A stretch of DNA of 64,000 nt, taken from NCBI RefSeq assembly GCF_036669915.1, contig NC_089319.1, positions 14,302,471 through 14,366,470 of the forward strand, in the 5' to 3' direction. The notes under the pieces are model-generated. The model worked only from the letters and a program-made list of their open reading frames with translations, did no database searches and had not been told where the DNA came from. Source of the DNA: Pocillopora verrucosa (Eukaryota; Cnidaria; Anthozoa; Scleractinia; Pocilloporidae). The position numbers and the translations under genes were made by a program. Positions 25,141 through 62,809 of the stretch are shown here, piece by piece (positions within the stretch are counted from its first letter, which is position 1; every line of letters begins with the position of its first letter).

Positions 25141-26079
25141 TTAGCGTACCTCCAAGGGTAATTCCTCCTCTCTTGCAGGCCTTTTTTTACCTTCTTCTTC
25201 AACTCCCTTATTTGATTCCTTAAGAATATTCATATATCCAAACCATACAGTAACAACAAACGTCAAAGTATTCTGAATCAATGTCGAAATCAAACTCTCG
25301 CTAAGAAAAACCTGTGCAACCATAAACAGAACTACCACAAACAACACAAATGCAGAAAGGACGGCTAGGATCAAAAAGAGAGACATGAAAAATATAAATT
25401 TTTCCTTCCAGTTTTCACAGGAAAGAAAATTTTCGGGAAAAACACGATGCAGCTCCGAAAGTGAGAAGAAAAGCACGGCACAAAGAGCAATAACAGCCAC
25501 TAAAACAGTAAAACCCCAAAATGGTTCTGTTATCATACCCAGCAAAATCCACAGCAGATGATGACTTACAATGAATACTGCTGGATAAAGTACAACGCCA
25601 GAAAAAAGGTTTTTGGTAGTCATTTCCCCGTGGCCCCCGGTTAAGTTTCGCTCACTAAAACACTTCCCCTCATGTACAAACATACACCAAAACACGCGTC
25701 GGAAAAGCACAAACAATATAGATCCAAAGAACACCCAGACGTAGCTGATCTCTTGTTTATTTCCGACTTTTGTCGCTGATATGCATATGTATAGATTATA
25801 GGCAAGTCCCCCTAGAAAAATGAGTAAAGAAAGAAGCATAGCTGCTGCAGTCTTACTCCGATAAGCCTTTTCGTCACCCCATGACCTTAGCTTCACTGTT
25901 ATCAGCTGTGATGACAAAGTACTCATAGCAAGGCTGATAACCAGTAAACTCCAACACACACCATGCAACAATTGTTTTACCCCAGAAAACTGTGGAGCTT
26001 TCCCATGCCCTGGGATCACGCACTCAACCGTGTTCAATCTTGGATCGGAAACTAATGGGATGACTGCCACATCCTGCAA
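25141..26079 (-). CDS. seven-helix membrane protein, 3' exon (joins 31898-32362)
   Basis: A 312-codon open frame directly follows an acceptor (TTTTGTAG at 26080-26087). No ATG opens it, so it is an internal or last exon. It has about seven hydrophobic segments (roughly residues 34-56, 80-100, 112-132, 156-180, 183-206, 228-252, 262-285). It ends with a charged Lys/Glu-rich tail, probably cytoplasmic. The phase is 0, matching the donor at 31898. Joined across the 5.8-kb intron, the protein would have a signal peptide, an ectodomain and this membrane domain. I remember similar uncharacterised proteins from corals only. A donor-like GGTACGC overlaps the stop, so a further 3' exon is possible. 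Confidence 0.7.
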   Translation of the reverse strand: MQDVAVIPLVSDPRLNTVECVIPGHGKAPQFSGVKQLLHGVCWSLLVISLAMSTLSSQLITVKLRSWGDEKAYRSKTAAAMLLSLLIFLGGLAYNLYICISATKVGNKQEISYVWVFFGSILFVLFRRVFWCMFVHEGKCFSERNLTGGHGEMTTKNLFSGVVLYPAVFIVSHHLLWILLGMITEPFWGFTVLVAVIALCAVLFFSLSELHRVFPENFLSCENWKEKFIFFMSLFLILAVLSAFVLFVVVLFMVAQVFLSESLISTLIQNTLTFVVTVWFGYMNILKESNKGVEEEGKKRPAREEELPLEVR

Positions 26080-27649
26080 CTACAAAACAATAAAGAAAAT
26101 CGTTATAGTGTAAACACAAGTATTTAACTGCATGGATAGCACACCTTAGTTATTAACAGAACACACGAGTTAGCACGTCACAGTGTTATAAAAACGAATA
26201 GCATTCAAGATCGGGTCGAAAAAAAGGAAGATTCCACGTTTACCTGTGATTAAACACTCTTGCATGTTTGCATGTAAGAGTTACTTTTTTCACAGGGTGG
26301 GTCGAGATGGGACGCTTTGTGTACCTAGTGTTTTCATTTTTGTAACAGAAAAAGAGCACAACTTCAAAAAAATGACAATATCGCACTACCTCATCTTAAG
26401 AAAAAGAAAAAAACCTAGTTTATCTGAACTCACACAGGTCTATTCTTTGTGGTCTATTCTCTATATTGTCTTAATACTTCTGAGCAAATATAAAATGCAT
26501 CGGTGCCACGCTTACTGCAGTTGTTTTTTCTCGTCACACAACGCGAGACACATACCCTAATGCAACGATCTGATTGGTGCGAGCAACATACCACTCTACA
26601 CGCCAACATAGGGTAATTTTTTTACATAAAAAAAATTAACTCAATTAGGTTTACAGAAGTCTCAAGTTTTCCCTTTCTCCACTTTTGTTTCCAAGTCCAG
26701 ATTTCTCTGAACGCTACATTTCCTTTTTTCGAACAGTTCGAGTGACAAAGGTAAATTCTTAAAACTTTGGGCGGAAAATTGGCGTGAGGCCAGCTAAAAA
26801 TTGATCCACTTGAGCATGCGTGACGTTCGACCGCCGTGTTTCCAGGGCTTTATTTTGTACGATGTCAAAGTAATTTAAGTTATTGCCGAAAACAATCTTT
26901 GCTACTCACTATGGCAGGCAAAGCCCATCTAAGTAAAGTTGTAAAAACATATACCTGTATTACACGATCGAGATATGTCTCTAAGCGTTGATTTAGTCTT
27001 TTTGGTCGGAGCCACGACACAGATGGAGATATTTTAATTTTTGTTTCTTAGTCTGAAATTATACTTGAACAAAGATTGAAACGTCTTTGATTCACGCACA
27101 TATACTTTAGGATTTGTTTGCTCCAGAGCTCGACATTTGTATTGAATTCTATTAAATTCATGAGCCGGGAAAGGCTCGAAACGGATTAGGCACAAGTTGT
27201 CAAATCTTATATCAAGGCATAGTAATTAAAACGTCATATTTTGCCTTTGTTGGTTTCACTGCATTTGAGTAAAGTCATCTCGTTCAGCGCGGAGGTAAAT
27301 GTCACTTGCCAGAGACTTAGAGCTTGCCAATCAGCATACGTGGAAGAAATACTGTTTACCATGAAAGTAACAAGGCAACTTCGATGTTCTCAAAAATAAG
27401 TTTGTGACGAGTTATCACGCTCTCAATATGATGCTAAAATATAATGAGGGTAACTTTTAAAAACAAGGGAAATTTCGTAAACGTTCCAAAGACTTTTGGA
27501 GACTGCGGAGGTCCCGATGTCTATCAATATTGCTACTTTCAAAAAATTGTGTCATAGAAGTTACGAGTTTGAGCGTCTCACTACGTCGTTGACGTCAAAT
27601 TTCACAACACACTACAACTCAACTACGAAGTTAAACCAAGCATAACAAT
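26080..27649. other. intron sequence, no gene recognised
   Basis: Left part of the inferred intron between 26079 and 31898. The plus-strand frame at 26246-26560 lacks family features and splice context. A G+C-poor, non-repetitive stretch as far as I can see. Confidence 0.45.
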
Positions 27650-27689
27650 GGGGCGCCAAACCAGTCAATATTCCCTCTGTATTTCTGTG

Positions 27690-27860
27690 ACCCAATTTAC
27701 TTTTAATGTGGTCAATTCGACTTTTTATACGGTCAACTTTTTACTTTTTATATGATCAACTCGAGTTTTTATGTGGTCAACTTTTCACTTTTAATAAGAT
27801 CAAATTTTACTTTTTATATGGCCAACTCGACTTTTTATATGATTAAATCGACTTTTTATA
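27690..27860 (+). repeat. left sub-terminal array of the 4.2-kb transposon
   Basis: Seven or eight imperfect units of about 20-25 bp, consensus near 'acttttTATATGgTCAActcG'. This is likely a transposase-binding array, by analogy with other DNA transposons (inference). Confidence 0.7.
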
Positions 27861-27910
27861 TAGTCAATTTCGAACCGTTCCAGAATGCATTGCGCCCGAT
27901 CACTAACAAA

Positions 27911-29351
27911 ATGGCTGCTTATACTCCCTCCAGAGAACGAAACGAGTACAGACTGTTTTTATTTTTTGACAATTTAAAGATACTGCTTTCGACAGTATCC
28001 TCATTCGAAGAGGCAGAAACAATAACTTGTCCTTTGAGGATGTTGATCAGGCAGCTGATAGATTGTGGACTGCTACAGAGACCATTCAGTTACTTACCGC
28101 AGACATTGGGAATAACGAAGATTTCACTGATGCGGCATCAATCCTAAACCTGTCTCTGATTAAGGTTAGGAACTTAATTGATTAGCTGCAGCAATACAGA
28201 AATGAGATGTTAGATATTTTTGGTGAAAGGACATATGGCAGCCCACCCAATTCAAGTAGGAATGGTCCTGGGCACCCACCTTATGTCATTGAGGAAGAAC
28301 AGATACGTTTTTTAAGAGAAATACATTTTTCCTGGAAAAAAATGGATTCACCTACTCCTTCTGAGGGTACTCTGAGGGTACTCTCAGAAGGAGTAGGTTA
28401 ATGTATGGCGTGACTGACCAAGAAGAGTTAAGTTGGACTCAAATAACTGGCTCAACTAGTGGGCGCTCTGAGAAGTAGAGGGCTAAATATTCCATGAAGG
28501 CACGTAAGAAACTGTCTTCAAACCTTTGATCCTGTTGGAACAGATTTACGGTGGCAGTCTACAATTTACAGAAGAAAATATAATGTTCCTACACCAAATG
28601 CTCTCTGGCACATATACAGCAATCACAAACTCATACGATGGTGGTCAATAACTCATATGTGTGTTCATGGATATTCCTTAATTATAATTTATGCCCACTG
28701 CTGCTATAATAGCAAAGCTGATACAGTACTGGAGCAATTTATAAGAGGTGTCAACAGTTATGGATTGCCTTCTAGGGTGAGAAGTGATTATGTTATGGAA
28801 AATTTCAAAGTAGTAGAGTTTATGCTTGAGCAGAGAGGTGTTGACAGAGGTAGCATTGTTATTGGTACTCTGTGCACAACTGTCATATAGAAAGGTCATG
28901 CGGAGAACTTTGCTTTCTTGCAAGAACATTTTCTTGCTTGGAGGATAATGAGCTACTGGATCCACCAAATGAGTTGCATTTATTTGCATTACATTACACC
29001 TTCATATCCCGAATCAATGAGCACTTACAGGAACTTAAGAGCCAGTGGGAAAATCATCCACTTTCTTCTGAAGGAAATCTTTCTCCTATTCAATTATATA
29101 CAGATGGAATGCTTGAAAATGAACACTCTGGATATGCTGCAGTTGCAAGTGTGTTTGATGCTTGTAATGGGCATGATTATGGATTTGACCCCTCTGCCTT
29201 TATCCCTCTGGAAGAAGAAGACTATCAGGAAGTAGTTCCAGATACAAGTGTTCCACTTTCTGATCAACAGATGGCATTCCTGGAAAATCATTGCAACCCC
29301 TTGCAAGAAAATGACAAAGGTGGTGAAAATACATACTTATACGTTGTTTAA
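27911..29351 (+). pseudogene. rve/DDE integrase-like transposase, decayed
   Basis: It opens with ATGGCTGCT at 27911. A helical N-terminal part follows (DQAADRLWTATETIQLL, in a shifted frame), then a helix-turn-helix-like stretch around 28290 (EEQIRFLREIHFSW). The integrase core runs from PTPNALWHIYSNHKLIRWW (28587) through SRVRSDYVMEN (28777) to HIERS (28884). The C-terminal part (28872-29351) includes ELHLFALHYTFISRINEHL. In relatives I remember, the first acidic residue sits in WHID; here it is Tyr. The second Asp (SD) and the Glu (HIE) remain. There is a stop at about 28182 and several frameshifts. It matches the repetitive 'integrase core domain' proteins of fish and cnidarians. Confidence 0.75.
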
Positions 29352-29769
29352 GAATTTTGTGTTCTTTCTTTTCACAGGGATACATATGTATCAACCGAAC
29401 TGACTTTCAAACTTGTATTTAGTATTAACAAAGCACCATAGAGGTTATAAACTTTACAAAACACAATGCTTTTTATTGCACTTCATGTTTTCAAAAGGGA
29501 ACTTTGAATAATTATGGACCTCATTGTATTTTAATAAATCTAACAATAAAATAACTGTTTGAAACCCAACAAAACCTAACATAATTAATTTAAAAATGTA
29601 AAAATGAGTGCGTCATCAGCAAGCACACCATTCTTGTAATGATGTAATTCTAAATGAAATTACATCGAAACTGGATAGCCTGAGAGCAAATGAAGCTTAG
29701 CAAGATGCACATATACCCTAATGAGACCACTTTATGGTGTATATTTATGCTATTTGTTCACACTATATT
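29352..29769. other. spacer between the two convergent transposon genes
   Basis: AT-rich, no coding features; probably the two 3' untranslated regions. Confidence 0.4.
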
Positions 29770-31650
29770 CATCTCCTAACTATCTGAATTCTTCTCTGGG
29801 CTCACAAAAGCTAGCACATGTGCTCAGCACCTCTGAAGTGTAGTTACAGTTGTGGGCAATAGGCCTTCTCTGTAGACTTTCACTGTTGGTGAATGATATT
29901 TTCAACCTGTCTGTGACAAGAACATCAGATGTAGATGTAAATCTCAAAAATTGGTAAGCTTAGCTTTGTCAAGCCCCCTGATGAGTCTCTTCAGGTGGGC
30001 CAGTGTTTCTGTCACAGCTACTGTAGCCAGACTGGCTTCAAGTAGGCCAATAACTTTAACATTACTAGGTGTGATGGAAGAACACAATTGATGTGATGAT
30101 TTTACATCTGGGAAATAAATCTTAAGGTGAGCAAGAATTGGTTGCCAGCAGTCACTCACATATTGGGACTCTTGCACTATCTCCTCATGAGCAATCTCTC
30201 TGATGATTTTTACTTAATTGCTGTGTGTGACTTTTCTCTTACAGTCATAGGCTGACAAAAAGTCAAGCATCTCATCATTGTCACATGTGATACTGTCGGC
30301 CAAGCAGCCTTCTGTAAGACTAGTTTCAGATGGAGAAACATAATGCTTGAAGGAATCTTGCAACATTCACAAATAATGCTTCCCTTCCCAAAAAGACAAC
30401 CAGCAAGAAAGGCTTTGCTTATTTTATGAGGAAAATACTGACTCTCTGCGTATCCCTTTACCAGTATCCTCACCACTGCTTCCCACTTATTGCAGTCAAA
30501 ATCATGTCTAATATAAGGGACTCTTTCACTCTTCCCCAATATGTGTGATTTAGAGAATTCTTTCCAAAACAAGGAGAAAACTTCCCTCAAGACCCCATTT
30601 CCCTGTCCAGCTTCTTTAATGGATGTATAATGATGGCATTTAAACTGGACTTCAAAATGGAAGGATCTGAAAAAACCTCAAGCATATCAGCCCTCACAAG
30701 TGACCTGTGAATTCTCATGAAGGTGAAGGTGAAGTTGGTGGAGATGTTCCATTAACATTAACTACAGCTTCATAATTGTTAACGGACTGATTGTTCTCCA
30801 TTTCTGACAAGAAGGGCATTGGATCTCCAAAGATAAGTAGTTCCCCTTGGTCTGTGGATTCAGCTTCACTGTTTTGATGCTGCAATGATGAGGAACTTGC
30901 ATTAACAGGGGTCTCTGAGAGGTCACCAGCACATTGACTAAAGGATGGTATCATAAGCTGTTCATCATCTTCATCCCTATCTTCCTCCTCAAAGGGTTCC
31001 AGACATCTGATGTACACACTCCCTTGACCTGAGAGCTTTACTATTCTTTCACCATCCATTCTTACTCCCTTTGCTAGTTTAGGAGTTACTAGAGTTCCAT
31101 AACAAGCCTACAAAGAATAGAGTTACAATCACAGAAATGAAGCAGGTCTCATCAACACCACACAGAGAATGCACAACTTAGTTAGCCACTAAAAACTAGA
31201 CCTTATCTACGAGTTCTTCTTAAATTTTTGCCTTACAATAAATGTACATGAACTTTCAATTATATTAATACAAGTTTTACTTCTAATTACTTATCTTATC
31301 AAGCAGGAGCCAAAAATTAGTTACCTTGAGGTATTCAAGCATAATGTCCTCTCTTAGAAGTTGACTTTCAATGTTTCTCGGGACATGGAACTTGTAAAAG
31401 TACCCGTCGAAGTTCGTTTTCTAGTTGCGGTCGCCCCACATGTGTTGAAAGTTGGAAATCGGCTTGAGAGCTCTGCTGCAACCGAAGGGCTTAATGATGG
31501 GACAGAGGAAGTCGAAGCTCTGTTGGTAGCTGTCAACGTTGCCACATTTCTAATATCATCATTGTGAAGATTTTCGATGGCTTCGAGAGCCTGCTTAGCT
31601 ATGACACACACCGAGAGGATGTGCAGCACGTCTTCATTGTTAGCAGCCAT
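29770..31650 (-). pseudogene. HECT-like ubiquitin-ligase-like gene of the transposon, decayed
   Basis: Start ATG at 31650 (MAANNEDVLHIL), exon to the donor at 31325, acceptor with exon from 31107, then coding-like sequence to about 29770. Exon 2 opens ACYGTLVTPKLAKGVRMDGE and continues through GSVYIRCLEPFEEE to an acidic linker. The HECT-like part follows: MLEVFSDPSILKSSLNAIII (about 30680), VLREVFSLFWKEF, YFPHKISKAFLAGCLFG, QYVSDCWQPILAHLK (30170), RLIRGLDKAKLTNF, and finally RRPIAHNC near 29850. HNC fits the catalytic-cysteine position of HECT domains. This matches 'G2/M-phase E3 ligase-like' repeat proteins in fish and coral annotations. It has a stop at about 30210 and frameshifts. Confidence 0.7.
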
Positions 31651-31689
31651 TTTGTTCAAGTCTAATCGCAATGCAATGTAGAAGTCACA

Positions 31690-31830
31690 AAGCTGACCAT
31701 GTAAAAAGTAACAAGTTGACCTAATAAAAAGTCGAGTTGACCATACAAAAAGTAAAAAGTTCATCATGTTAAAAGTCGAGTCGACCATATAAAAAGTTCA
31801 ACTGACCATATAAAGAGTAAAAAGTTAAAT
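31690..31830 (-). repeat. right sub-terminal array of the 4.2-kb transposon
   Basis: Inverted counterpart of 27690-27860; units such as 'gaccatataaaaagttcaac' repeat about six times. Confidence 0.7.
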
Positions 31831-31897
31831 ACAGTGAGAATAATGTCTGCTTTGGCGCCCCGTACAAAACGCTACACAGTATAGAATGATCACTTAC

Positions 31898-32362
31898 CGT
31901 GGAAAGGAAGTATATCATTTTTTCTTGAATGTCGACGGTAGAGCTATTGCAAAATTGTGGCAGTGTTATGTGCAATTTACTTCCTCTTCTGTTTGGATAA
32001 ATCGCTCCCAGGGAAAACAAGTTCATGGAGGTCAGGCTAATTCCTCCGCTGACGTACAAGCACGACATACTCCACGTAAACTCGGTTTTCAATGTCGTTG
32101 ATAGATTGTTACTTCCGTCTGACTTTTCGCCAGCTGTCTTCAGGAATTTCACCGTGATGTCGATCAGCAAAGATGGGAGATCCACAGAAGGATACACAGC
32201 CTTCGATATGTTAAAATAATTGTCAAAAGAAGAATTGGAAGACGTAAGATACTTTTGCAATTGTTCGTCGCGTTCTATGCAGGTTCCAAGAACGTACTAA
32301 AAACGCAACAGAACGATCGCAAAGATGGCATTAAGCGTGATACACAATGAACGTGGAATCAT
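31898..32362 (-). CDS. seven-helix membrane protein, 5' exon: signal peptide and ectodomain (joins 25141-26079)
   Basis: ATG at 32362 opens a signal-peptide-like MIPRSLCITLNAIFAIVLL. After codon 21 there is an in-frame TAG (32299-32297). The same frame then runs 133 codons to a donor (CACG|GTAAGTG, end 31898, phase 0). The ectodomain part has VSGGISLTSMNLFSLGAIYP and several N-x-S/T sites. The TAG also forms an AG that could be an acceptor for an exon starting at 32296, so there are two readings. Either the gene has a nonsense mutation, or splicing replaces this signal peptide with another. The 4.2-kb transposon begins 36 bp downstream of the donor. Confidence 0.65.
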
Positions 32363-34985: not shown

Positions 34986-37900
34986 ATGGCCGTTACTCAA
35001 CGGAAGCAAAAGCCAGGATTTGTCGAACAAGCGATGGCTTTTGGGAATCTCAACCCAAACCCCAAGAAAGCCATCTTTGCAGTAAGGGAAGTTGTTCACA
35101 CATCTGGAGACATCCCTATAATCTACAAAACAAGAGGAATGGCTTGTGCCGTTGAAGTCGGAGGGAAGAAACGTTTGGTAACTTGGCACAATGTAATCAA
35201 CGAAGACGATAAAGCTAAGCCAATAAGATTGCATCGGTGTTCAAAAGAATTTTTTAATGACCAGAAAAACTATCGGTTCGAAATGTCACAGGTCGAGCAA
35301 ATTGAAAGTTGCTCGTTCATTTCATTACTACGAGGCGACGCACCGACGCCAAAGAAAGATTTTGGAATTCTTAAGTTGAAAGTTCCAGGAAGTGATGAAA
35401 AGAGTAAGGATGTCTTTGCACACTCATTCATCGGATGCAAAGATACCGTAAAATTCACTTTCAAGTACGACTACGACAGGGGAAAGCACGAACTTAATTA
35501 TTCTGACAAGGAGGATTGTATATGCGAAAAATCTACTATCCTTGGATCCCCAATCATTACAGACATGTACCAAGTCATTGGTGTCGTGGGAGAGGATCTT
35601 GATGGACGACTTTTTCCCTACTTCTTAACAGACACAGAAGTTGGTAAGTAAAGATGGCTGAAACAGAAGTCTCAAAAAGTTAGTTCTGTTGTGTCGGTTG
35701 TGGCCCTGATCTCTCATATGCAATTGAAAAATCTGAAAAACTCTTGATTGGTTAAATAAAGACTTTCTTCTACGAATGCGCTCCAAGGTGAGATCAGCAA
35801 GGTTGCCATGTGACAAGAGGAGATAAAATATGGGGGCTAAAGTTGCAACATTAGTTGCCGAATTTTTGAGCTGCAGTGTTCATATTATATCTTGGCTATT
35901 ATTTTTATTTAAAGGAGTGCTTCGTCATTTGTGTTTAGAAAATTTCAGATGCCTTTTCCCCCTTGGTTAATGTAGTGATATACTTTGAGATATCACGTGA
36001 ATCTTCAAAGTGGAACGAGCTAGTTTATTTTTCTGGCCTCTGAACTAAGTAGCGAGCATTTCAAGATTTGAGGTTGTCAAATGGTTACTGTGCGTATACT
36101 TACAGTTGAACAGTTTTAAATGTCAAGATTGTTGTTTGATGTCTTTAAAACCACTAACCACCTTCTCAGTATTTATTTGATTAAAACATGCAACCAAAAA
36201 GCAGGACACTCCAGACCAAGAAAGGAAGAGGGCTGTGTTATGTTTGTTTTTGTTCTTGAAAAAAAAAAATGGAATGTATGAAAGAATTACAACAATGTTA
36301 CTTCTGTCAAACGCCAACAGTACAATATTAACAGTAGAGATGATAGTTGGCAATTACAAACAAAACAGAAAAAGAGTTTTAAGCCCTTTGAGCTTTTTCC
36401 CAAATTAATGAAACAAGTCAAATACACTATAAATCCAATAAGTTTATTTGTAAAACACAATTTTTCAGTGTATATTCAATTATGATTCTTCTTTTTTCAT
36501 AAAAGGTATGTGTGGAACAGAAAATCAAGAAAAGAAACCTAGTGAGGGTGAGACCCAAGATATCCCAGATGCCGCTGGTATGTAATTTCAATGTGTGTAG
36601 TTTAAATGTACATTAAAATGACTCGATCTATTCTTGATTTTTACATAAATTTTTATAGCTACATTTATCATACAATTTGTGTCGTATGCATTAATCAATT
36701 GAAGTCCCAGCCCCTGAAATCTTCCTTGCTATTTTGAATGGTTATGTAGTCATGTGTTTTCCACTTATTAAAGCCCCCCCCCCCTCCACCAATTTAAGGC
36801 CCCCTCCTGGTTACTATAAGGTCCATCTACTTGTATTAACAAAGAAATACATGCAGTTATAATTTAAGGCCCCCTCCTGGTTACTATAAGGTCCATCTAC
36901 TTGTATTAACAAAGAAATACATGCAGTTATAATTTAAGGCCCCCTCCTGGTTACTATAAGGTCCATCTACTTGTATTAACAAAGAAATACATGCAGTTAT
37001 AATCCCCAACAGACATAAGCTCCCTCCTAAAACCTTCTCTTTCTTTCACTGTTGAGAAATAGGAACTCTTTACTGCTTCAAATAGAGAATTTGAAAATAT
37101 TATTGCACTTTTTCTATTCTGGTGATAACCCCCTTAGATATGTGCCTCTGATCCATTTTAATGATAAAGTTTGGATATAATGCACACTCCCATGGTTGTA
37201 AGAGCGTACTCTATAATGGTACAAAACATGGAGCTGAGCTAAAGTTGTCACATTAAAGTTGTCACGCTAAAGTTGTAATATGTCCAACCATTTCCTGGAC
37301 TTCTCTCTAGCTCCTCTTTGTTAATTGAAAGTGAAATTTCAGAGCAAGCAAGCCGTAATTGATGTTGTTGTAACATGAGCAGAGACAAAAATCCTCAGAG
37401 AGAAAATGAAATGGACTGTCCAAGTTTTGAAGGTTTTCACACTCAGTTAAGTAAGATTATTTACTGGTAGTTATAAAATTCAAACACAGCTAACAGAGTC
37501 TTAATATATAGAGTTTCATGTTCAAAAACAAAAGAGAAGAAAACAGGAATGATGAAAAATACAACCAAAGTGGCATAACTGTTAAAATTCATACAAATCA
37601 TGATGGTGCCAGATGCTTTGGTCTATCAAGGCTATTTTATCACGACGATCTTCTGTCATCACAGTGAAGTAGGCTGCAGAAATTACATTGTCCACCCTTC
37701 AACTAAGGGCTTGCTCTGATATCCTTTCTGATGTGTTGGGTGGAAGCCCACATCAGTCACAGCAGCCAAGTTCTACGGCACTCTCATAAGTTGAGAAATG
37801 TACATGTTCCTGTGAATTTGGCTGTCATTCATTAATAAAACATACACCGTGTTTGTTATCGAATTGTCATACAGTGAAAAAACTTGCATGGTTTGATAAG

Positions 37901-40900
37901 TCACAATTCAACCAGATTTCACAGAACATTCGCTTTCAGATTCTTTATTAAGATTAAAAACTTCAGGCAAAGGTATTAAATTCAACATGTTGAACTATTT
38001 CGGTTTGTGAACTATTGCAGATTGTGGACTGTGATGGTTTGACATTTTTAAAAGCTTCAGTCTTGTTCAACCAATCAGATTATTTGAACCATTCTAACAA
38101 GGATTCTGATTGGTTTATTGTGGTGTGCTTTGTGAGAGTATAGAGCTGATGACACTTGTTCACTTTGGAGATAAAACTTGTTTGGAATATTGGAAGTAAA
38201 ACATTGGGAATTTAACGGATTCTGCATGTATTATAAGAGAAGTGGGGAGAAACATTTGACTTCATCTTGTGTTTCTCCTTGCACTTCTTTCATGCTCTAG
38301 CTACTTCCTGCATACTTTACAACAGAATAGAGCACAGTCAAGGCTTCTCTATTTGTTAAATAAGCCCTCCAACCCCCCATTCCCGTGCATTCAAAGTTTC
38401 TAAGCTGAGTCAGGGCTTGTAAGCAGCAGGTTGTGGTAACACTTTTCATGCTAGAGGTGCATGTTTGAAAAGTGAAGATGAATGAACAAGAGCATGAATC
38501 TGAATAATGAAATGCAGCCACTGGATATGTTTGAAAAAAGTCAAATTTTATTGCATATATGGTTTAAGTTTAGAACAAAGAGTGCTTTAGCTGCTTCCTG
38601 CTTACTTTACAACAAAACAGAGCACAGTCAATGCTTCTCTATTTTTTAAATAAGCCCTCCTAATCCCCCTCCCACTCCTTCAAAGTTTCTAAGCCCAAGG
38701 CCTGTGAGCTGCAGTTTGTGGTCATACTTTGCATGCTAGAGGTGCATTTCCTGGTCTGTTTGAGACTGATAAATGGGTCACAATGCAGGTACTTTCTTCA
38801 AGGAAAAAGCTAACAAGATGTATTTTTGTTTTACAGTTAATGGTGCAAATTGAATTCTGTTCAACAGCTTTCTCATTTTGATTTAAATTTGTTTCCTTCT
38901 AATCATGGCTATGCGTGCATGCATGACATGTTTGTTATCACTAAATTCTCAAAAGGAAAACATGTTAAACTATGGAGGGAGAAAATGCTGAAAGGAGTCC
39001 CTTGCGAAATGGCTTTTGGAATTCCTAGGAATTCTTAGGAATAAAGGTGTGAATTTTCACGGTAAATTCGGACTGGGAATTCCTAGGAATTCCCAACCAT
39101 AACAACTCTGGTTCTAAAAACCTAGAAATTCCCAGAAATTCCAAGTTTATAGCCAACAGGACTTGGAATTCCTAGGAATTCCAACTCATAGAACCAATGA
39201 CTTTCCCTGAAAAGCTGTAAATCTAAAAAATTCCTAGGAATTTCTGGGAATTTTAAGTAAAAACTTGAGGCTAATGATATAAAATAAATACTTTAAATTA
39301 AAAAAACCCAGCTAAAATTCAAGTATTCAATGAAATTTATTTAGAAGCTTAATTAAGGCTTACATGTAAAATATTTTTGATTAATTATTAACATCAATGT
39401 GTGGTAATATTAGGATGGAATTTGATTTATTTTTCTTTTCTTGAAAACTTCATATGGATTAATCCTCAATTACAGCCATTCATATAAAATAGTCCTAATC
39501 AATCATTAAATTTGGTTTGACACAAATTGTGAATAAAATCTGTTGATTCTTTTCCATGAAATACAATATCTTAAATTATATTTGAAAACCAAGCACTCTT
39601 GGGAGTGAAGGGGTTAATTACAGACAAATAAAATTGATTTTTTGATTAAAATCTTGTTGTAACTGTAACAATAAATTAGAATGAAGTTATTCTAAACTGT
39701 CAACTTAGCTGCTGTTTGTATTTTTTTTCCTGGGCTCACAATAAGTTGGCCTTGAATGAGGTTGTCTACAAGAAGCTTGACTATCTTGTATCTGGATTCC
39801 ATGACATCTGAATTTGAAAAAAAAAAAATTTAAATATATATATTTAAAGCTCAGACCAGGCCTATAAGATGGCTATGAGGAAAAGGGCATTCATTGGATT
39901 CTCACATTGAGAAATCTCTGTTATATTGAGTGACTTTTATATTGGAGTAAGTACATCTCTCTCATAGATTTTACTAAAAAAGGGCTGAATACATTATTTT
40001 GTTTTTACCAAGGAGGGCTTCTTTATGTAATAAGGTTTGTTTAACAACAGTTCCTATTATGAATCTTGAATGTTCCCAAACGTGACTAGAGGAATCTAGT
40101 CAATATGTCAACTGTTGTCCCTTCTTTTAACTCCACGGCGCCAACGACTTTCTTTTCTTTTACAACACTCACGCTGTTCTCGTTTTCCCATTGAACCACA
40201 ATAAAAGCTATCTTTAGAAATGTTATATTTAGCAAAACGGTTGAGAAAAACGATCAACCGATGAAAAGTACATTCAAAGATGAGCGCCAAATGGAGTCTT
40301 CTTTGTTTCCGATCACGGGCATGATCACGTGGATCTTTTAGGACTTGTCATTGGCTAGCAAAGTGAATCCGCTGGCTTGCCGATTGCAGTGTTAAGAGAA
40401 GCGCATAACTTTATTCTGACTTCTCTAACCGGTTCTCTGCTTCAAGACGATGGATACCTTGGTGATATAAATAATGATGTGAGCTCACTCTATGTAGAAA
40501 TAATCGACAAGAATCGATCGTATTACAAATGCACGATTTGTGGCCGAAAGTTGTCGAGGAAACAAAGACTCGAAACTCACTTGAGTTGTGTTCATGGCAA
40601 AGGTGAGAAATAACACAAGCCATTCACAGTTTTGAATGCGACTACAAATCGTCTTTTACCCTCATATTTATAAAAGAAGGATACCACATTAGGAAGTATA
40701 AGAGAGACATAGATGATCCCAGTGTACCAGTACCTAAATCTACAAAGTTTGACCGTAGCAAGAGTTCAGCAACATGTTCCAACACCGCCATCTCGATTCC
40801 TCAGTCAGTCGTTTCCACTGAACTTAAAGCAGTAGTGACAACAGAGTAGAGTGCGTCTTTCGAAGGAGAAACATTTGTACAAGAGACAGAAGTAACTATA

Positions 40901-43900
40901 TGCGATTACAGAGGTGCGTTGGAACTCTGGTCCACAAATAGTTATGCACTGTCCGAAGTATAAAACAATTTTGTTGATAGCTGACAGACAGAGAAGAACA
41001 ACAAGTAAACTTTAGAGCTGTTATTATTGAAGTGTGACTTGCACTTTTCATTTTTATATAAAGAAGGACTTATATTTTGCACCAAATATAAAAAGATGTA
41101 ATATTTTTTGGGAGATACAGTGATTGGGACATTTAAGAAATTAAGTTATGAAAGGAAACTTGGTAGGTACTTCTCACTACTAACAAGTCTTGTTGACAAA
41201 TATTTTCAGATCAGAGTTTCAAATAAAGTAAATTGAAGACGTCATTTAAAAGGTGTTTTTTCTCAAAGGGAACATTGACTACCTCTGTCTTGTCTGCATG
41301 CCAAATGTTTGCAAAGTGTGTGGATGATCCACAAGTATTGGAACTCTTACAAAAATGTTTTGTAAGAATAAAAACAGCAAAACAAATTACAGCAATTAGT
41401 CACGAAAACAGAGCAAAAAACTGAAAAAAAAAACAGCAACAACAATCATGAAAAAATAAAGATTAATTAGGTGTTGAATTTGTTTGTCTAAGGCATGAAA
41501 TTTCTACTAAGAATATTGTCAACAAAAAGTCTCTGACAGTGTTTGAGGCAACTGAGCTTGACTGTTGCAAGGTTTTCTAACAAAGGCAACCAGTAATGTA
41601 GGTTAGGGAAGTAACTTATGTTTATAACTAACAAAGTTCTTTAAGTGTAGATAACAATGTAATTATTGTTAATTATTGTGGAAGTTGTGTACCAAGGAAC
41701 AGCTAATGAATGTTTGATGATTTTGACACATCAGTGAACATGATACATTAATTTGCATCACAATAAAAATATTTTTTGATCATGGAATCCAAGAGTCCTT
41801 TCACATTAGAAAGCAAATCTGTGATATGAGTACATTGGATTAATTGGCAATTTCCATTTAACATAACTGACAGCTGGTTCATGAGAAAATCCATATTAAT
41901 GTAAAGATTTACTAAAACTTAGTTTGAATAATAAATTTCATGATCTTTAAGTTATAAACATACACATGTATGAATATCTCTTGGTAAGTTTTGTATAGCA
42001 TACCTTTTATTGAGCCAAAGTTTTAAGCCTCTGAAATTACTCCTTTTCTTAAAACCTTCACATTCAAGGTATTGAGAATTTCTTAGAACTTATGTGGACC
42101 TCAGGGTATTAAAATTGCCTCAAATTCAATTCCCAGAAATTCCCAAGAGTTCCACACTTCTTAAATTATAGGTAGTTTGTAAAGCTTAGAATTCCTAGGA
42201 ATTCCTAGGGATTCCAAGTCTTCACAAAACTGGAGTCTTCCTTTCCCAGAAATTCCCAGTAATTCCAAGCTTTTTAAATCAGAGTTAATTTGCATAGTTG
42301 GGAATTTTTGAGAATTCCCAGAAAACTGGGAATTCAGTTTGCAAGGGTTATTTGCATAATTGGGAATTTTTGAGAATTCCTAGGAATTCCCAGAAAACTG
42401 GGAATTCAGTTCGCAAGGGGTTCTTGTTCATATGTATGGCTAAATTAATTCATGGAGGCTTGGGAATGTAAGGTCACATATGCATTAATACTGTGATAGT
42501 TATTTATTTTTATTTTTTACAACATAAATGTTTGTTTTATTTAGGCACTCCTGAAGGAACCACCAAGAATCTTGAAAAGTTGAAAGATGCAATCAAAAGA
42601 TGTGAAAGTAAAGTCAGGAGCAAAGGAGTTCCTAAACTTGAACTAAAAGTTAAATTAAAGAAAGCTGCATTTGAAAAGGGCTTCATTGTTTCTGATAATG
42701 ATGGAGGGGGCAATTGTTTGTTCCATGCTTTATCAGAACAACTGTCAATTGCTAAAGAAGATCCAATTCCACATGATGTATTAAGGAAAACATTAGTTCA
42801 ATACCTCAAAGAGAACCAAATAATGGTAGGTTTTGTTTGGTATTTATAAGGGCTTACTTAGCACTATGTCAATTGCTCATTTAGTTACATAATCAAATAT
42901 TGCATTTTTAAACTTCCTTCTGGATTCACAGTGTTTCATGTATGTATATGTAATGTGAAGGATTAAACATGAGACCAACTGTGAAAAACTGTTAAAACTC
43001 TTCTTTCCAGAGATACTCATTTTTCAGAAAAATGTGTGGAAACTAGGTGACTTTGCGGTTACATGAATTGGTTTACAGTCAATTTAAGTTAAGTGCAAAC
43101 AACATTTTAGGCTGAAGCATTGGTCCACTCAGCTTTACTATCTAGAGAGCCCTGTTGGCCAGCACATTTTGTAGTTGAACCAAACAGACTCCCATTGAAA
43201 CCATATATGCGATATCTTAAAATAGATAAATCTACTCTACTTGGGAATTTTGTTCTGATCTGCCTGGTTCTGATCTAACAGGAACACATCAGGGGTTCAC
43301 ATCAGTTTCAACTTCCCATTAAACCATGACTTAATAGAGTGAACTGTGAAGAAATCTTCTTTAATTTAAGACATTTAATACTTAATTTTAAGTATTATTC
43401 ATTCAGTTGTTCTGTCAATGTTACACATGTCTCAGGTACCTATAGCAGCCACTGTGCAAAAGGTTTAAAATAAATAATAATGTTAAATATGAAAGAATTA
43501 AACTTTTCTATCATGGCCTTTAAAGTCCATAAAGTTAAGGTTGCTTATTATATGACAGTTTTGCTGTAAGGAAGTTTATGAGTTGATCGAGCATAACCAG
43601 ACAATTTACTGGAACAATCAGATAAGTAATAAAATTACCATAGGATTTGTTGACCAAGTTAAATCATTTTATCTGCAAGGAGACTTGGTCTAAGCTTTTT
43701 TGAAGCATAACTTAGGTATTTTGTGGAGACAGTACCTGCATATTTACTTGTGTATAACACAGGCCCATGTATAATGTGCAACCCTATTTTTTTGCCAGAT
43801 TGTTGAGGAAAAAAAGTTTGCTAAGCAAAAAAGACATAATGTCTTCTCACAATTATTTATCAACTTAAAGATAACAACAACAAGAAAGTTACTTTATTAT

Positions 43901-46900
43901 TATCATTGATATTTTTCGGTGCATAGTAATTCGTTATTGATAAAGAAGCTCAAGAAAAACTTATATACAACCTTTGAAATTTTCCTAGCACTGAACAACT
44001 ACAACCATGACATGATTCCTCTTGTTTCCTGTTGGGCAGATTATTATAACTTTGTTGTCCATGTCGTTGATTGTGTGCTTTGGTGACTTGTCGGTACCAA
44101 CAATTTCTGGCCTTAAAACTCCTTCAGGAGTTTGGTATTTTTCATCTTTGTCAAGCTGAAGTGCTTTCAGTCATACCAGGGAAGGAAGAAATAGCTATAA
44201 AGCCAAGGTTTCTCTTCTCTGTAATCCATGCCAACAGATCAATCACTGACCATGACCAATTGCAGCCTTCTTTCCACAGTTAACACATTTGAGCTGAGGC
44301 ACCTTCTCCAAGTTTCTTTACTTTTTCTAAATAGCCTGACTTTGCATTTGGAAACACCAATTTCACATTCAGTTTCATGGTTTCCATTTTTCTGGGCTCT
44401 GCAAATTTCTGATCACTCGTAATACAGTGTGATTGTAATGTTTATGTCATCAGCTGTTTCTTAAATACTCTACTAAACTTATTCATGGATCAAAATAGGA
44501 AATATTTCATTGGTTGATCAATATTTAACTTGAGCTAATAGAGACCAATTACAACAAAGCTTTTATTTTTTAATGTTTTAAGCAAATTACGTGCACAACA
44601 AACAATAGGACCCATGTATAATATGCAATTTTGATTTTATGTTTTTTCAATGCTTACTCTAATCCTCTAAATACCTAATTTATTGATTCTTCTTTTAGGA
44701 AGATGGAACTGATCAGTTCAAGCTGTTAGACAGTAATCAACAAAGCCGTTTTAATACATGGATTGAGTACCTAAAACACATGGCAGAGGATGGTATTTGG
44801 GGTGATGAAATTGTAATCAGTGCAGCAGCAAATTGCTATAAAACCATTATTAATGTGATCAGTGTACTACCTGAAGACAAAGAATCGATAATCTCTATCA
44901 CACCAGAATGTGAAGTAAAAAGTGGAAATCCAATTTGGCTGGGACACATCTATGATTTCCATTTTGTCAGCCTTCTCAAAGGTACAACATTTATAAAGTT
45001 CATTACAATGCATAAAGCTCTTTTGTAAGTGACTGGTGTCCAACCAATTTGTTTTAGCTATCATACTGGTTACAGCACCAATGAATAATTCATGGTATGA
45101 GAAGAAATATCTTTTACAGTTCAAGATGTAAAAACAAAAACCTTTCAAAAACATTGAAAAGTACTGTCCTGGGCTTACCCATTTAGCAGCTCTTTATTTT
45201 TTAGGTCAGTGTGCAAACGTGTGTCTCAAAACATCAAAGGCATGGTCAATGGATGCAACCGTTTCTTGAATGAAATAGAGGCAACAGATAATTAACTATC
45301 AATTATTGATTATTATGATAATAAGTAAGACTTAATTAATTTGATTACTATAAATTAAAATTGTGATTTTAAACACCTTAAGATCATTATTAATTATTTT
45401 TCTAATTTACTATGCTCAGACGTATATACAGTTTAAGTGTGAACATTTACTCTCTCAATAATGAATTAATTATCAATATTCTCAGCAGGACTTAGTAAAG
45501 ATACCAAAATAGATGTGAACTTCTCTCACCTAAATTTGTTATTAACAGCACCAGTACCTTCATCAGATCAACGTATCGATGGGACTAGGCTGCAAGAGTG
45601 TAATGAAGAGAGGGACAAGCAGCATGAACTTGTGTCTGGTAATTATTTTTTAAATGATTGTCATTAGTATTTGTTTGCTCATGTTCACCGACTGAAGGGT
45701 TTCTTGTTATTGGCTCTCCAGTTATCTAAAAAGTGTGAGGCATTAGAACTCGACCAAAATAAGATGGTAAAATATCCATACTTGGACAAAATCTGTATGC
45801 TTGTTCCCTGGCTGCTATTGTTATTATTCCTTTTTAATGCCATTTTAGAATGTTCTTCATTTTAATTTGTTTGTGTTTTTTCTCAACCTAATTTGTAAGT
45901 CAAATTAAAAGTAGATTCTTAAGGATTATTTCCATGTGCGTATTTTAAATAGGTCATGAGAAGCCACCCTTCGGAATTAAAAGAAGCTCTTCTCTGGAGT
46001 CTGTTGAGAAAAGTAAGAGGTCACCTTTTATCTAACCATTTAAAACAAAGATGGTGTAGGATTTAGCCTTAAGTGCAAGCATGTGATTTTTTGGGTTTTG
46101 CTAAATCAAAAACAGAGGTCACGATAATTGTAAAGAGTTCAACTTAGTTTATCTACTTTATTATACACAGTTTTAGTTAGGTTTAATTGGTGTGGCAATA
46201 TCTATAAACAAATACGTCGATTTTAAAATTTCTAAGTGACTGAGTTTATGCAGTAGGTCATTGTTAATAGTCCGTAATATGATCTATCCAAGGTTACGCC
46301 ATCTTACATTATTTTACGCCATTCTACCATATTAGCCATGATAAGGGACCGTGGGGTACTATAGAACAGAGCTGAAATACAGACGGAAGACGGAAGGACA
46401 AAATGGCCACACTTAATGATCAAAACACTGATTTGTTTTTCCATATTTTGGGCATGACCTCTTAAGTTCATCATAGAGAACACTTTAATGGTTTCAATAG
46501 TTTTGTTTTCGTCTTTTGGGCACCCTTTCTGCAATTTATATAATTATGTGGAAAAGCCGAAGGATGTATTTGATAAACTAGAGGCCAAAATACCTGAAAA
46601 TGAGATAATAGCGAGATAATAAATCCCTTATTCGATGGTTTAACATGAAATTCGAGGAGAAATTTTGCTCATTCCTCGTAATCTTCCTCACCCCGTAAAA
46701 TACTATGCAACTCGCGAAATATCCGTCTGTATTACATGTTAAACTATTGAATGAGATGAAAATATGGCACTAGTATCAATATCACAATTAGCTATGACAA
46801 ATGCACTATTAAGATGTAACATGTATGACGTGTACAATAGAGGAGGAACTCAGGAATTGATTCACTTTTAACAACTAAAAAAATAATTATCAGAGACTGC

Positions 46901-48500
46901 TTTACCTGTTAATCTGTTGGTGATAGTAACAATCATATATAGAGCAATCACATCAAGACCCTGGCGTTAATTTGCATTGCACCATTACTTGACCTCGCTA
47001 ATTTAGGTTTGTGTTATTGAACTCTCTACGCACACGTGCTGTCAAGTGTTTTTTTCATTTTAGTTGATACGAGTTGAAATAATCGTGTGGTAGACTCAAC
47101 CAATAATTCCTTACAAGGGAATGGCAATAGAAGTCATAGAAGAAACTGGGAGAAGAAAAGCATGGAAACGTTCAAGATTCAAACAGGGTTTAAAACGGTG
47201 CCTACGAACTAACAAATGAGGAGCAAAACCACATGATTGTTTCACGTATTAAGGAATTTAATCAGTATATTATAAATTCATTTATTTTGATTTGAGAATT
47301 CAAAAAAATATATATTAGGGAAAAAAGAAACTAGAGGTGACATATGTAGAGTTTCAACATCCATAAATCGGGTACAATCAAGTCCCAAATAGAAGTATCA
47401 TAGAAATTCATTCTTTTTCCAAAAGTCAGAAGTGGTAACATTCCTCCTGAATGGTTTCCCTACCTTGCATTGGATATACAAGGCAACATGAAGTGGAGAA
47501 GGTTTGGGAACAGTTTAGATCTGAGTAATGCGGAACTCAATGGTATTGATCAAGACAACGATGAAGAATACGAGCGAAGTTATAAGATGCTGATAACTTG
47601 GTGGCAAAAAGGTGCTGCCTCCTATGAAAAGCTTGCGTTTGCCTTAAGAGAGCATAATCTTGGAGAGATTCGTCAAAACTACTGCCTAATGGGACACACT
47701 CCACTCTTGAAGAAAGATGTGAAGTTGCGTAAGTAGCAGAATAATTTCTTAAGCTCTTTGCATAAACTTAAACTATCAAGCTCTTCCATTAACCATACTT
47801 CCATCCTTTCAACCATGACCCCATTCAGGACAAGCAAATCGATAGAAGCTGTCTTTCATACGGCGGTAGCACCTGCTCTTTTAAACCCCGAGTTAATAAT
47901 TGAAGAAAACACAGAGAAGTGCACTTCATAATGACGAACCCTCATTTGACTACTTTGAAAAAGTGTTCTGTATTGTAGAATGCTAAATACAACATCCGTT
48001 ATTGTTGTCAATCACGCAACCTTTAGTGTCCTGTTGAGTACTGATTCACAGATTCTGAACCTCTGTAGTAAACTTCAAACTTGTCAGAGAGGACTTCAGT
48101 GTATTTTCCGATATTTGATATGTCATAAGATATAATTCACCTTATACGTTGCTCATGTATTTGTCTCCTTACACATGTTTTTGTTTGATTTGTTCAATAT
48201 TAAGCAGGGAACCTGAAGGAAGGACCAATAGACGATAAAGCTTTATCAGCCATAGCCAAGGCCGTGATGAAAAAATGTCAAAGACTGGGTAGGGCACTTG
48301 GGATAAATAATGATCGATTAGACGAGATAGCGGTGAACAACCCAAACGATGGTTTTGAGCAGTGCTATCAAATGTTAATAGCATGGAAGCAGGCCAATGT
48401 TGACAATGCTTCTTACTATTCCCTTGCGCAAGCCTTATATGACCGCACTGTTAATTTGGGTGTTGTTGTTAATAGCTTGTGCCTCAAGAAAATCCAATGA
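34986..48500 (+). CDS. OTU deubiquitinase-like protein with trypsin-fold N-terminus and two Death domains
   Basis: Eight exons with matching phases: 34986-35643, 36506-36577, 42545-42825, 44699-44981, 45549-45638, 45953-46012, 47426-47728, 48208-48500. Spliced they give 679 residues. Start ATG 34986 has a good context (cacATGG). Residues about 40-220 look like a trypsin-type fold (RLVTWHNVI, DFGILKLK, LGSPIITDMYQVIGVVG). The position expected for the catalytic Ser is Leu, so it is probably inactive. The OTU domain has DGGGNCLFHAL (Cys about 301) and HIYDFHFVSL (His about 425), the expected catalytic pair, so activity on ubiquitin chains is likely. Two Death domains follow (about 488-570, KWRRFGNSLDLSNAELNGID; about 595-670, LGRALGINNDRLDEIA). 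A role in cytosolic death or immune signalling is inferred. No stop or frameshift seen. Confidence 0.85.
36791..37000 (+). repeat. perfect 70-bp tandem triplication in intron
   Basis: Three identical 70-bp units start at 36791, 36861 and 36931 with 'aatttaaggccccctcctgg'. The identity implies a very recent expansion or an assembly stutter. Non-coding. Confidence 0.95.
38280..38755 (+). repeat. direct duplication of ~170 bp in intron
   Basis: 38283-38462 and 38583-38752 share 'actttacaacaaaacagagc'-like text, 'aataagccctcc' and 'catgctagaggtgcat' in the same order. Roughly 85 percent alike by eye. Confidence 0.7.
38999..42420. mobile_element. 3.4-kb inverted-repeat element with GGAATTCCTAGGAATTCC arrays
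   Basis: CCCTTGCGAA at 38999-39008 is matched by TTCGCAAGGG at 42410-42419. Just inside both ends are arrays of palindromic words (GAATTCCTAGGAATTC): 39010-39255 and 42120-42415. The right array includes a tandem duplicate of about 65 bp ('tgggaatttttgagaattcc'). The centre carries a C2H2-finger gene (40377-40963). The whole lies in intron 2 of the OTU-Death gene. I cannot name the transposon class, and no target duplication is clear. Confidence 0.7.
40377..40963 (+). pseudogene. two-exon C2H2 zinc-finger gene inside the 3.4-kb element
   Basis: Exon 1 runs to a donor at 40602 (GGCAAAG|GTGAGA). After a 74-bp intron, exon 2 starts at 40677 with a matching phase. Exon 1 encodes acidic text and one finger, YKCTICGRKLSRKQRLETH followed by LSCVH (C-x2-C-x12-H-x4-H). 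Exon 2 runs to TAG at 40847, but the same frame stays open and coding-like (SASFEGETFVQET) for 37 more codons to TAA at 40961. This suggests a nonsense mutation. No ATG begins exon 1: an acceptor (gattgcag, 40388) or a lost start must precede it. Possible role: DNA binding for the element, or an alternative exon of the host gene (phase-compatible). Confidence 0.5.
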
Positions 48501-51500
48501 TATCGTGGCCATAGGTGAAACCTTTTCTGAGAAACTTTTCAGTGTGGAAACCTAGCCAGAAAAATATCTCAAGTATAGTGAATTTGTTAAACGATAAAAA
48601 TAGAACTATATTTAATCTGAAATAGTGTAAGGGTTTCCTTATATTGGTGTTGGGAAAAAGAATGGAAATATTATATTACTTTAAGCCATTCGATACAAAA
48701 ATTATAACAAGACAGGTTGATTATTTCTTATTCCTTTTGGCGATCTCATCTAAGTACAATTTCTTTCACCTTTTTCTTATTGTGGTTGTGAATTTGGTAC
48801 GGAAACAGTTGCCCCGTTTCTACGGTGATTAGATCTTGTTGTACTATTTTTTGATAAGCTATGTTTTTAATTATGTCAATTTTCTAGTTTTAAATCTCTC
48901 TGGTAAAAGTTAACCTCGCACAGGAATTCCTGGAAACTCCTGCTTCTTATACTATTAATTACTTTCAGACTGGTTTTTTTGGTCAAATTCTAAGTCAAAT
49001 TCACGATTCCAGAATAGTTCTTAAATTTTAAATTAACACCTTCAACACTTCTTCTTAAAGGTGACTCTGATTGTAAATAGCTTATCCTTTTTCATCTTCG
49101 CACTGAAAATTAAATTAGATAAACCAAATAGTGTTGCTGGGGGCGGTGCTAGCGAACGCCCCTTCTTCTCCGAATTTTCTGTTTACTCTGTTGTTATATA
49201 ACAATCCTCTGAGGCTATTTTCTCGTAAACTATCTTTTCAAGCGTAATTTCAATTCTGCCAATAGTTTAATTATAATTTTTATATTATCAATCTTGTCTT
49301 TGTTCTGGCCGATCTAAACCGTAAAATTAAGAAATTTAAGGTAGAAGATGATTTTGTAATAGCGTAAACAACTCGAAGGCACATACTTATTATGCAGGGT
49401 CTGTCGTACGTAACTTAACGTGATTCGCGGATTGAGATAGAATGGTGACGATAGAAGAAAATTGACAGCTTAGTAGTGTCACCTTTAGTGCCACCTTTAT
49501 AAGCTGGTGCACGGTATCTTTAAATCAGAGAATATAGCAAAACAGAACAGTGTGGACTTATATCGAAAGAAATAAGTTGAGCTGTGGTGAATAAGATCAA
49601 GACTGGGCTAGGAGCTCAACCAGGAAATAAGGGAAATTTAACCGAGTGTTAGAGAGTAATTCTTCTAACAAATTTTACATACTTAATCTTTGGTAGTAGT
49701 ATGCAATATTTTGGTGGCAAGAATTTAGTTGTTAGACTGTATTCATCAGAGTACTAAAAAGTTTGATGGTCTTTCCACAATCCAAGTGGTGTTCCTAATG
49801 TTTTAAATTAGGGTCTGATATTTTTATTTTTGTTGTCATTGTTCACTGCTGGTGTAGTAGTAGTAGTCACGTGAATTTAAAGACAAGGAAAAGCTTTGTA
49901 CCATATTTTTACATACATTTGAAGTTGGTACATTCAAAATACTCTAAATGTGTATCCTATTCTAAACAATCAGTTTGTAGGAACGAGCAAGAAAGCTGGG
50001 TCAAGAGCGCGAAAATGTAATTTGTGATAATCGTAATTAGCAAAAATTGTTATTTGTTAGGGGGGTCTACAGTGCGAGGAAAGTTTTGGGATGGTAGTTT
50101 ATAATAATTATTTGAGATCGTTAGTAGGGCGAGGTATTATGCGGGTAGCCTTTGCTGTGTTAAGTTGGTAGGTTTCATTTTCGTATAAATTTATTTAGTG
50201 TTTTTTTTCTGGAATATCGTCATGTTCACATCAGCTGTACTCGCATGCTTCCTTAAGTAACTGTTATCTACTTGTTTATATCATGTTATTCATAGGGTCC
50301 CCTAAGACCCGTAGGGTGGCAGCACTGTTGGTACACGTTCCCTTTTTTTCCTACTGCCGGTTTTAGGGGTTTTCGTGTTCGACTGCATTTAGTTTCCTTC
50401 ACTGAACTGTAATTGTGATAAGCACTTGTACGCATAATGGCGTTAAATAAACGGTACAGTGACTTGGCTCGCCAATGCGCCCAGATATCAACAATTTGTG
50501 TGCCCGGTTGAGTAGTGCGGGCAAAATAACCAAGGGGAACTAAGGAAATGAATGGTAGGACTTGGTCCTTAGAAGCTTTTTATCTCCACTGACTGCGGAA
50601 GAACCTGGCATTGGCTACTCAAAAAATATATTTTTTCAATGAAAAAAAAAAAAAACTTCATTTGAATAGTATTCAATTCCATGCCCTTTATGATAGAAAA
50701 ATAATTTGTACTTGTGAGTAACTAGGTAAATCAAGCAAACAAAAGAATCCAGTTCATTACGATTATACACTCTTTGTTTGTGAGTAATAAATGTGCAACT
50801 TTTTTGCAGTGCAACATGAATAGTGTAATCTTCATGAAACTTTTTTACTAACTAAACGTTGCGCATGTTGCCGCACGACTCATTTCTGCGCTTTGGAATC
50901 GCCTCGTCAACCTTAACACCCTAACTCAGTGTGCATATTCTTCATACTTTCTCCTGTGGTATTTGGCAAGGCGAATTTATCATGCAATCAAGACCTTCAA
51001 TCAGTGACCATTTTCCTATTTCTCTGACCTTAAGGTTTGGTTCAGAGGTGATATTGTAAGGAGAAATTACATGGCACTCACTTTTACGGATTACTTTTAC
51101 GGACTAAAGAGTTAGATGGATGCGATCTCATCATGGAGGCCGAAGTCTTCGATTGATCGGCTGAGCTTTCTAGAATTATGTGCTAAAGACAAGTTACTGG
51201 TGAATCAGGCCGAATGCTTTTGCAAAGAACGAAATGTTTCGTCGATTCTCAGATGACTGCAATACGTTCTGTCCCACTAGCAGGTCTCAAGCGCGCCAAA
51301 AAAGGCTGTTCGTTTAACACCAAGTAACCAAACAACATGTTTGTTGTATGTTCATTTGGTCTTTGTGCCAGACTAATTAGACAGCGAGAACTTCCAGAAG
51401 AGGGATTCCTGAGGTCTTAAAATAATATCCTGTTGTTGATGCGGTAAATCAAATCGCTCTCGATCGTACGCTTTAGGCGGGAAATGCCTCAAGTCGAATA

Positions 51501-58754: not shown

Positions 58755-59474
58755 TGTATATGAACTGTAACAAAATATTTCTGAATCACTAAATAAATTT
58801 TTTCTTCACAGTCATTCAACTGGGATAGCACAACTATTAAGTTTGGGATGCATGGGCCAGTCTGAGATAACACATGCTACATCAGTATTAAACAATAATT
58901 TTAATTTTCCAACATCGTTCGAGACAGTCACACAATGTTATTGGACTGTTCACACAGAATGAACTAATCAGAGTTTACTTCTGGACGTTTAAAGGAAAGA
59001 ACTTTGTATTGTTCATTGTTTGGACATTGTTGACCAAACAAATATTTTCTTCGAGACAATATAAGATAAACTTCAACGTCATTAATTTTATCCTTAATTA
59101 AGGGATGTATAGAGCGAAATCTCTAACACATGAATCTAAACTGTAACAAAATATTTTTCATTCACTGCTATAACGTTCCTCAAAGTCAAACACCTGGGAA
59201 AGCAGATGCACATCTTTTAGCTTTGGGATGCATGGGCCAGTCCGAGACTACACATGTTACATCAGTATTAAACAACAATTTTAACTTTCCAACGTCCTCC
59301 GAGACAATCACACAAGGGTATTGGACTGTTCACAGACAATGTGCTAATCAGAGTGTACTTCTGGACGTTTAAAGGAGAGAATCTTTGTAATGTTTGTTGT
59401 TTGGACATTGTATACCAAACAAATGTCTTCCAGAGACATAAGATAAACTTCAATGTCATCGATTTTATCCTTTA
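58755..59474. repeat. tandem duplication of the 3' end of the RPA-like gene
   Basis: 58755-59097 and 59142-59474 share 'tttgggatgcatgggccagt', 'ttattggactgttcacac'/'gtattggactgttcacag', 'ttctggacgtttaaagga' and 'aagataaacttcaa.gtcat' in the same order. The second copy contains the stop and last 40 or so codons of the RPA-like gene; the first is a decayed copy beyond the stop. Confidence 0.85.
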
Positions 59475-60791: not shown

Positions 60792-60986
60792 CGTCTGCAA
60801 CAAAAAATGTTTTACAAATTAAAAATACATCACACATAGATACATATTTTATTGACTTTCCTCCAGAGGCTTTTCAAAGACAATAATTAAATCAAGTCAA
60901 ACAAAGAAAAACAGGGGAACACAATAATTGGTATTTGGATGTCTTGTTTAGCTTTTGGAGAACATGCTTACTGTATTAAGTCAAAG

Positions 60987-62729: not shown

Positions 62730-62809
62730 CCAACATGCTTTATAAGTTTCATCACACTGTTCAAGATTGTCCCATGCATTGTCTGCTACATGTTGCCAAG
62801 GTTTATATT

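Follow-up and report, generated by a model that had tools for sequence, protein, structure and literature searches.

A predicted gene joining a trypsin-like, an OTU and two Death domains in the coral Pocillopora verrucosa

Within the window, i.e. the complete stretch of 64,000 nucleotides of Pocillopora verrucosa DNA analysed here, positions 34986-48501 hold eight exons (Table 1) which, when rebuilt from their GT-AG boundaries, give a single open frame with a sole, terminal stop codon. With the acceptors at 45549 (exon 5) and 48208 (exon 8) this frame has the 679 residues proposed in the preliminary description, while alternative acceptors at these two exons result in either 680 or 699-701 residues; the exon 5 acceptors at 45486 and 45489 add 21 and 20 residues, respectively. 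All seven donors are GT and all acceptors are AG, and the introns are in phase 1 except for intron 3, which is located inside the OTU domain and is in phase 0. The GC content at the three codon positions is 0.50, 0.35 and 0.38, vs 0.34 in the introns, and when segments of the window with lengths matched to the exons were joined at random 20,000 times, no join was free of stop codons, although this is a crude control because the exons had been picked for openness. The frame of exon 1 is open upstream as far as 34872. Each of the eight exons is matched by at least one protein returned by our searches, with exon 6 matched only in P0001, a gene prediction from P. meandrina. The P0001 sequence is continuous over the ends of the window exons, with its LLK-APVPSSD sequence fitting the internal acceptor of exon 5, and its LPGNLK sequence fitting the exon 8 acceptor located three bases earlier (48205). 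We consider the predicted gene model, with eight exons in one frame, to be confirmed at the level of the sequence.

Table 1. Exons of the predicted gene, with positions in the window
Exon	Predicted feature	Position	Strand	Comparison
1	Trypsin-like domain, probably a pseudoprotease (residues 1-219)	34986..35643	+	Relatives 38-94% identical
2	Linker, 24 codons, phase 1-1	36506..36577	+	83% over 23 residues vs P. meandrina
3	OTU domain, N-terminal half, Cys301 (GNCLF)	42545..42825	+	
4	OTU domain, C-terminal half, His425 (HFVSLL)	44699..44981	+	
5	Linker	45549..45638	+	Acceptor fits P. meandrina protein and the count of 679 residues
6	Linker, 20 codons	45953..46012	+	100% over 20 residues vs P. 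meandrina
7	Death domain 1, 101 codons, phase 1-1	47426..47728	+	Pfam 35.4 bits
8	Death domain 2 and stop codon	48208 (or 48205)..48501	+	Pfam 45.7 bits

Several other features were observed in the window. The head-to-head neighbour of the gene (25141-32362, reverse strand) is hydrophobic and, judged by eye, perhaps a multi-pass membrane protein, with no Pfam match; its relative P0007 is a hydrophobic-looking protein which continues into an OTU domain and a part of a Death domain that is not reported by Pfam. Intron 2, with a length of 6 kb, contains an open stretch of zinc-finger-like character (40359-40849, forward strand) with BED (E 0.0016) and C2H2 (E 0.005) matches below the cut-offs and a possible second exon, which is perhaps a nested gene or a transposon remnant; the length of this intron and its open stretch count against the reading as one protein. 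A 70-base unit is also present in intron 2 in three identical copies (36791-37003). A PIF1-like helicase (E 4.7e-23) adjoining a weak OB-fold match below the cut-off is found at 59344-62879 on the reverse strand and is mobile-element-like, and a transposon-like Integrase core domain (rva_4, E 1.2e-34) is found at 28498-28887 on the forward strand.

The Pfam OTU family (PF02338) matched residues 297-393 with 48.8 bits (cut-off 23.3, E 1.2e-12), and the Death family (PF00531) matched twice (cut-off 22.6 bits, E 1e-19), with each Death exon passing the cut-off by itself. Both copies are assigned to the Death fold, and the tandem Death domains of the preliminary description were found as claimed, as was its domain order, which is supported by these Pfam matches and by the order in P0001. 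An AlphaFold model of P0001 (6-row alignment) was of low confidence (mean pLDDT 47.9) with the OTU part poorly resolved, and no OTU chains were present among the 50 matches listed in either fold search with this model. Among the matches listed, the nearest for Death domain 1 in the model were ankyrin-B, DR3, TNFR1 and p75NTR, and those for Death domain 2 were p84, RIPK1, FADD, ankyrin-G and TRADD. The two Death domains share 39% identity over 71 aligned columns, and so their interaction faces may differ.

With regard to the N-terminal domain, no Pfam family matched window exon 1 either above or below the cut-off, while in its relatives PF13365 stayed below the curated 27.6 bits (14.5 bits in P0001, 16.6 bits in P0008), with the trypsin-like profile matches in two relatives being weak (E 0.061 and 0.013). 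Sequence searches of this domain against solved structures gave one and three weak matches, all unrelated, and the 12 pattern matches in viral contigs and 15 in prokaryote contigs contained no relatives. Comparison with E. coli DegP/DegQ/DegS using Hhalign was not significant (probability 2.0% and 0.3%); in both of these non-significant alignments TNxHV is paired with TWHNV, and in the second NSGGA falls on LGSP. An AlphaFold model of window exon 1 (7-row alignment) had a mean pLDDT of 48.0, i.e. low confidence, and in a fold search with this low-confidence model all 50 matches listed were chymotrypsin-fold chains. The triad positions, as assigned from the motifs, have Leu in place of the catalytic Ser and Asn or Gly in place of the His in all 12 sequences, with Asp at the catalytic Asp position in six of the 12, and hence the His-Asp-Ser triad of S1-type peptidases is absent. 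From the model we infer a trypsin fold, and together with the residue loss this makes the N-terminal domain probably a catalytically dead pseudoprotease. The inactive trypsin-like N-terminus suggested beforehand is supported by these two lines, and the family supplies a conserved pseudoprotease-like domain with no Pfam model above the cut-off in the sequences scanned.

The protein search returned seven relatives out of 7,995 scored candidates, the search with the trypsin-like part as query five out of 452, and the alignment search 14 out of 7,997; as only candidates sharing exact words were scored, absence of the architecture elsewhere is weak evidence. Species names are available for five of the 14 relatives (P. 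meandrina, P. verrucosa and three from Stylophora pistillata), all of which are Pocilloporidae. P0001 has the UniRef label 'Ubiquitinyl hydrolase 1' and is 86% identical to the window protein over 93%; its model begins only at Met52, and has the trypsin-like, OTU, Death and Death domains in this order. The complete four-domain order was found only in the window and in this one gene prediction. The preliminary description presented the order as one not known to have been described; it is also predicted in P. meandrina, and no description of a trypsin-like/OTU/Death architecture was found among the titles and starts of abstracts listed in literature searches, with OTU not occurring in the main texts searched.

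The other relatives contain differing subsets of the modules. P0005 (Stylophora pistillata LOC111343702 isoform X2) has the trypsin-like and OTU domains with one divergent Death domain, which scored 23.6 bits as an excised tail (cut-off 22.6) and 20.4 bits, below the cut-off, in the whole protein, and for which BLAST detected no relation to either Death domain of P0001. P0009 has OTU, Death and Death domains, P0013 (Stylophora) two Death domains and a partial OTU domain (21.9 bits, under the 23.3 cut-off), and P0002 trypsin-like, Death and Death domains, while P0003 and P0004 have trypsin-like and OTU domains, P0006 has a trypsin-like and a partial OTU domain (20 bits, below cut-off), and the trypsin-like part stands alone in five of the 14 (P0008, P0010, P0011, P0012 and P0014). 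A search of P0001, P0002, P0007 and P0013 with NCBIfam gave just two weak matches, far below the cut-offs. P0002, P0004, P0007 and P0009 are each encoded on contigs of 2,115-2,506 bases, whereas the modules in the window span 13.5 kb, which suggests that these four are spliced transcripts, although they may also be intronless copies. Both P0007 and P0009 are on a contig of 2,386 bases, but their exon-4 parts are 58% identical, and they are thus different genes. As most relatives are without one or more modules, function may reside in isoforms or in separate genes.

This variation raises the question of whether the locus encodes several shorter proteins (trypsin-like with OTU, trypsin-like with Death-Death, and OTU with Death-Death) via alternative splicing or intron-retained ends, the full-length protein being minor or a prediction artefact. 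Partial module sets are present in P0002, P0003, P0004, P0006 and P0013, and the OTU exons 3 and 4 (188 codons) form a phase 1-1 cassette. In the window, reading on past the exon 4 donor (44982-45028) leads to a stop at 45028, resembling the end of the P. verrucosa protein P0003, and reading on past the exon 3 donor (42826-42849) leads to a stop at 42849, resembling the end of P0006, which extends further. P0003 and P0006 themselves end by read-on past the equivalent donor sites, hinting at intron-retained short isoforms. However, where their modules overlap with those of the window protein, all five proteins with partial sets reach an identity of only 45-74%, which makes them paralogues and not isoforms of the window gene. 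P0001, with its 86% identity, is full-length from Met52 onwards, and we consider it rather unlikely that the locus mainly makes shorter products.

The solved relatives of the OTU domain were, nearest first, OTUD5 (3pfy, E 6.4e-8), wMelOTU, and OTU domain-containing proteins 2 and 3. The OTU domain had been described as a predicted active cysteine protease with Cys ~301 and His ~425, and both residues were found at these places in the 679-residue model, with the Cys kept in 7/7 and the His in 8/8 of the sequences covering each site. The usual third catalytic residue, either Asp at C-3 or Asn/Asp at H+2, is missing: in the alignment, the C-3 position of OTUD5 is Asp and its H+2 position Asn, whereas every covering sequence lacks both, with G/R/S/E at C-3 (Asp in 0/7) and V at H+2 in all eight (Asn/Asp in 0/8). 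Because Cys301 and His425 are kept but both usual third residues are missing, deubiquitinase activity of the predicted OTU domain is plausible only, and may be weak or absent, so that the earlier prediction of an active enzyme is supported in part. A substitute third residue may come from elsewhere in the OTU fold, and the Asp located two residues before the His, kept in 7/8, could speculatively act as such a stand-in; OTULIN has an inhibitory Asp at H-3 (PMC4765238).

The missing third residue also fits with an OTU domain that binds ubiquitin without cleaving it, in which case the protein would be a ubiquitin-reading Death-fold scaffold. The identity to P. meandrina is in line with this, as among the five large coding exons it is lowest for exon 4 (72%, vs 89-95% for exons 1, 3, 7 and 8, with exon 3 at 95%). 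Retention of Cys and His in every covering sequence would however be unexpected if catalysis had been lost, and the H-2 Asp is also largely kept. Furthermore, the OTU domain of TYMV PRO functions with a Cys-His dyad, without a third residue or oxyanion hole, and cleaves endo- and isopeptide targets albeit with lesser activity (PMC3744425). A purely ubiquitin-binding OTU domain is hence, in our view, unlikely.

The modules of the gene are bounded by phase 1 introns, and as all introns except the one inside the OTU domain are in this phase, both the OTU domain and exon 7 with its Death domain form cassettes that can be exchanged. The closest relative of exon 4 is still P. meandrina, with the next at 67%, and the low identity of this exon may reflect either exchange with another paralogue or fast divergence. 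The phase 1 boundaries, the differing module subsets and the divergence of exon 4 fit with a fast-evolving and shuffled family. In line with this, coral genomes, including that of a Pocillopora, are reported to show pervasive tandem duplication, with tandem amplification of gene families of which many are tied to innate immunity (PMC10236652). While this duplication and the existence of diverged paralogues would allow for a decayed or non-expressed copy of a fast-turnover family, the eight exons without internal stop or frameshift, the GT-AG boundaries throughout and the conserved motifs make this very improbable.

The sequence is best read as a Death-fold architecture specific to its lineage, which includes an OTU domain and a probable pseudoprotease. 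We propose, with a probability of about one half, that this pocilloporid coral gene encodes an exon-shuffled Death-fold adaptor with its own OTU domain, which edits ubiquitin at signalling complexes. Such a protein would be an intracellular multidomain signalling protein built by exon shuffling, in which the dead trypsin-fold domain most likely binds a ligand, partner or peptide instead of cutting it, and the OTU domain most likely removes or edits ubiquitin via its Cys-His dyad. The two C-terminal Death domains, which are unlike each other, would dock on other Death-fold proteins and thereby bring the OTU domain to the complex of a receptor or adaptor; its trimming of ubiquitin chains there would tune NF-kB-like signalling or cell death. 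The cytosolic location, docking partners, deubiquitinase activity and signalling outcome are all predictions.

A20 and OTULIN use zinc fingers or partner motifs to reach their complexes, and neither is known to do so by Death domains of its own; in the coral protein, a Pfam scan gave no A20-type zinc fingers after the OTU domain at E up to 1. Both A20 and OTULIN resemble the proposed adaptor in being OTU enzymes which regulate NF-kB signalling (PMC4765238). The predicted protein is also reminiscent of the Death/TRADD-N expansions of marine invertebrates, which are lineage-specific and have varied Death-fold architectures, and trypsin-like domains fused to Death-like domains are present in bacteria (PMC8195603). 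It differs from these expansions in having no TRADD-N domain (Pfam scan, E up to 1), and OTU does not occur in the main text of the paper on them (PMC8195603).

One quite unlikely extension of the proposed adaptor is a self-contained immune module of pocilloporid corals, in which the pseudoprotease senses a protease of foreign or host origin, or the target of such a protease, or serves as a decoy for it, with sensing leading to local ubiquitin removal by the attached dyad-type OTU domain on a Death-domain complex. The whole would be a swappable exon set, recombined by the coral with further modules such as a membrane-protein-like partner (P0007).

In well-studied animals, deubiquitinases are known to reach Death-domain complexes through partners. 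If the coral protein is made and active, ubiquitin editing would be brought directly to an immune or cell-death complex. By fusing OTU and Death domains directly, such a protein would couple ubiquitin editing with Death-fold assembly in a compact and testable way, and would illustrate how new immune adaptors are built in corals from the exchangeable exons of a single family.
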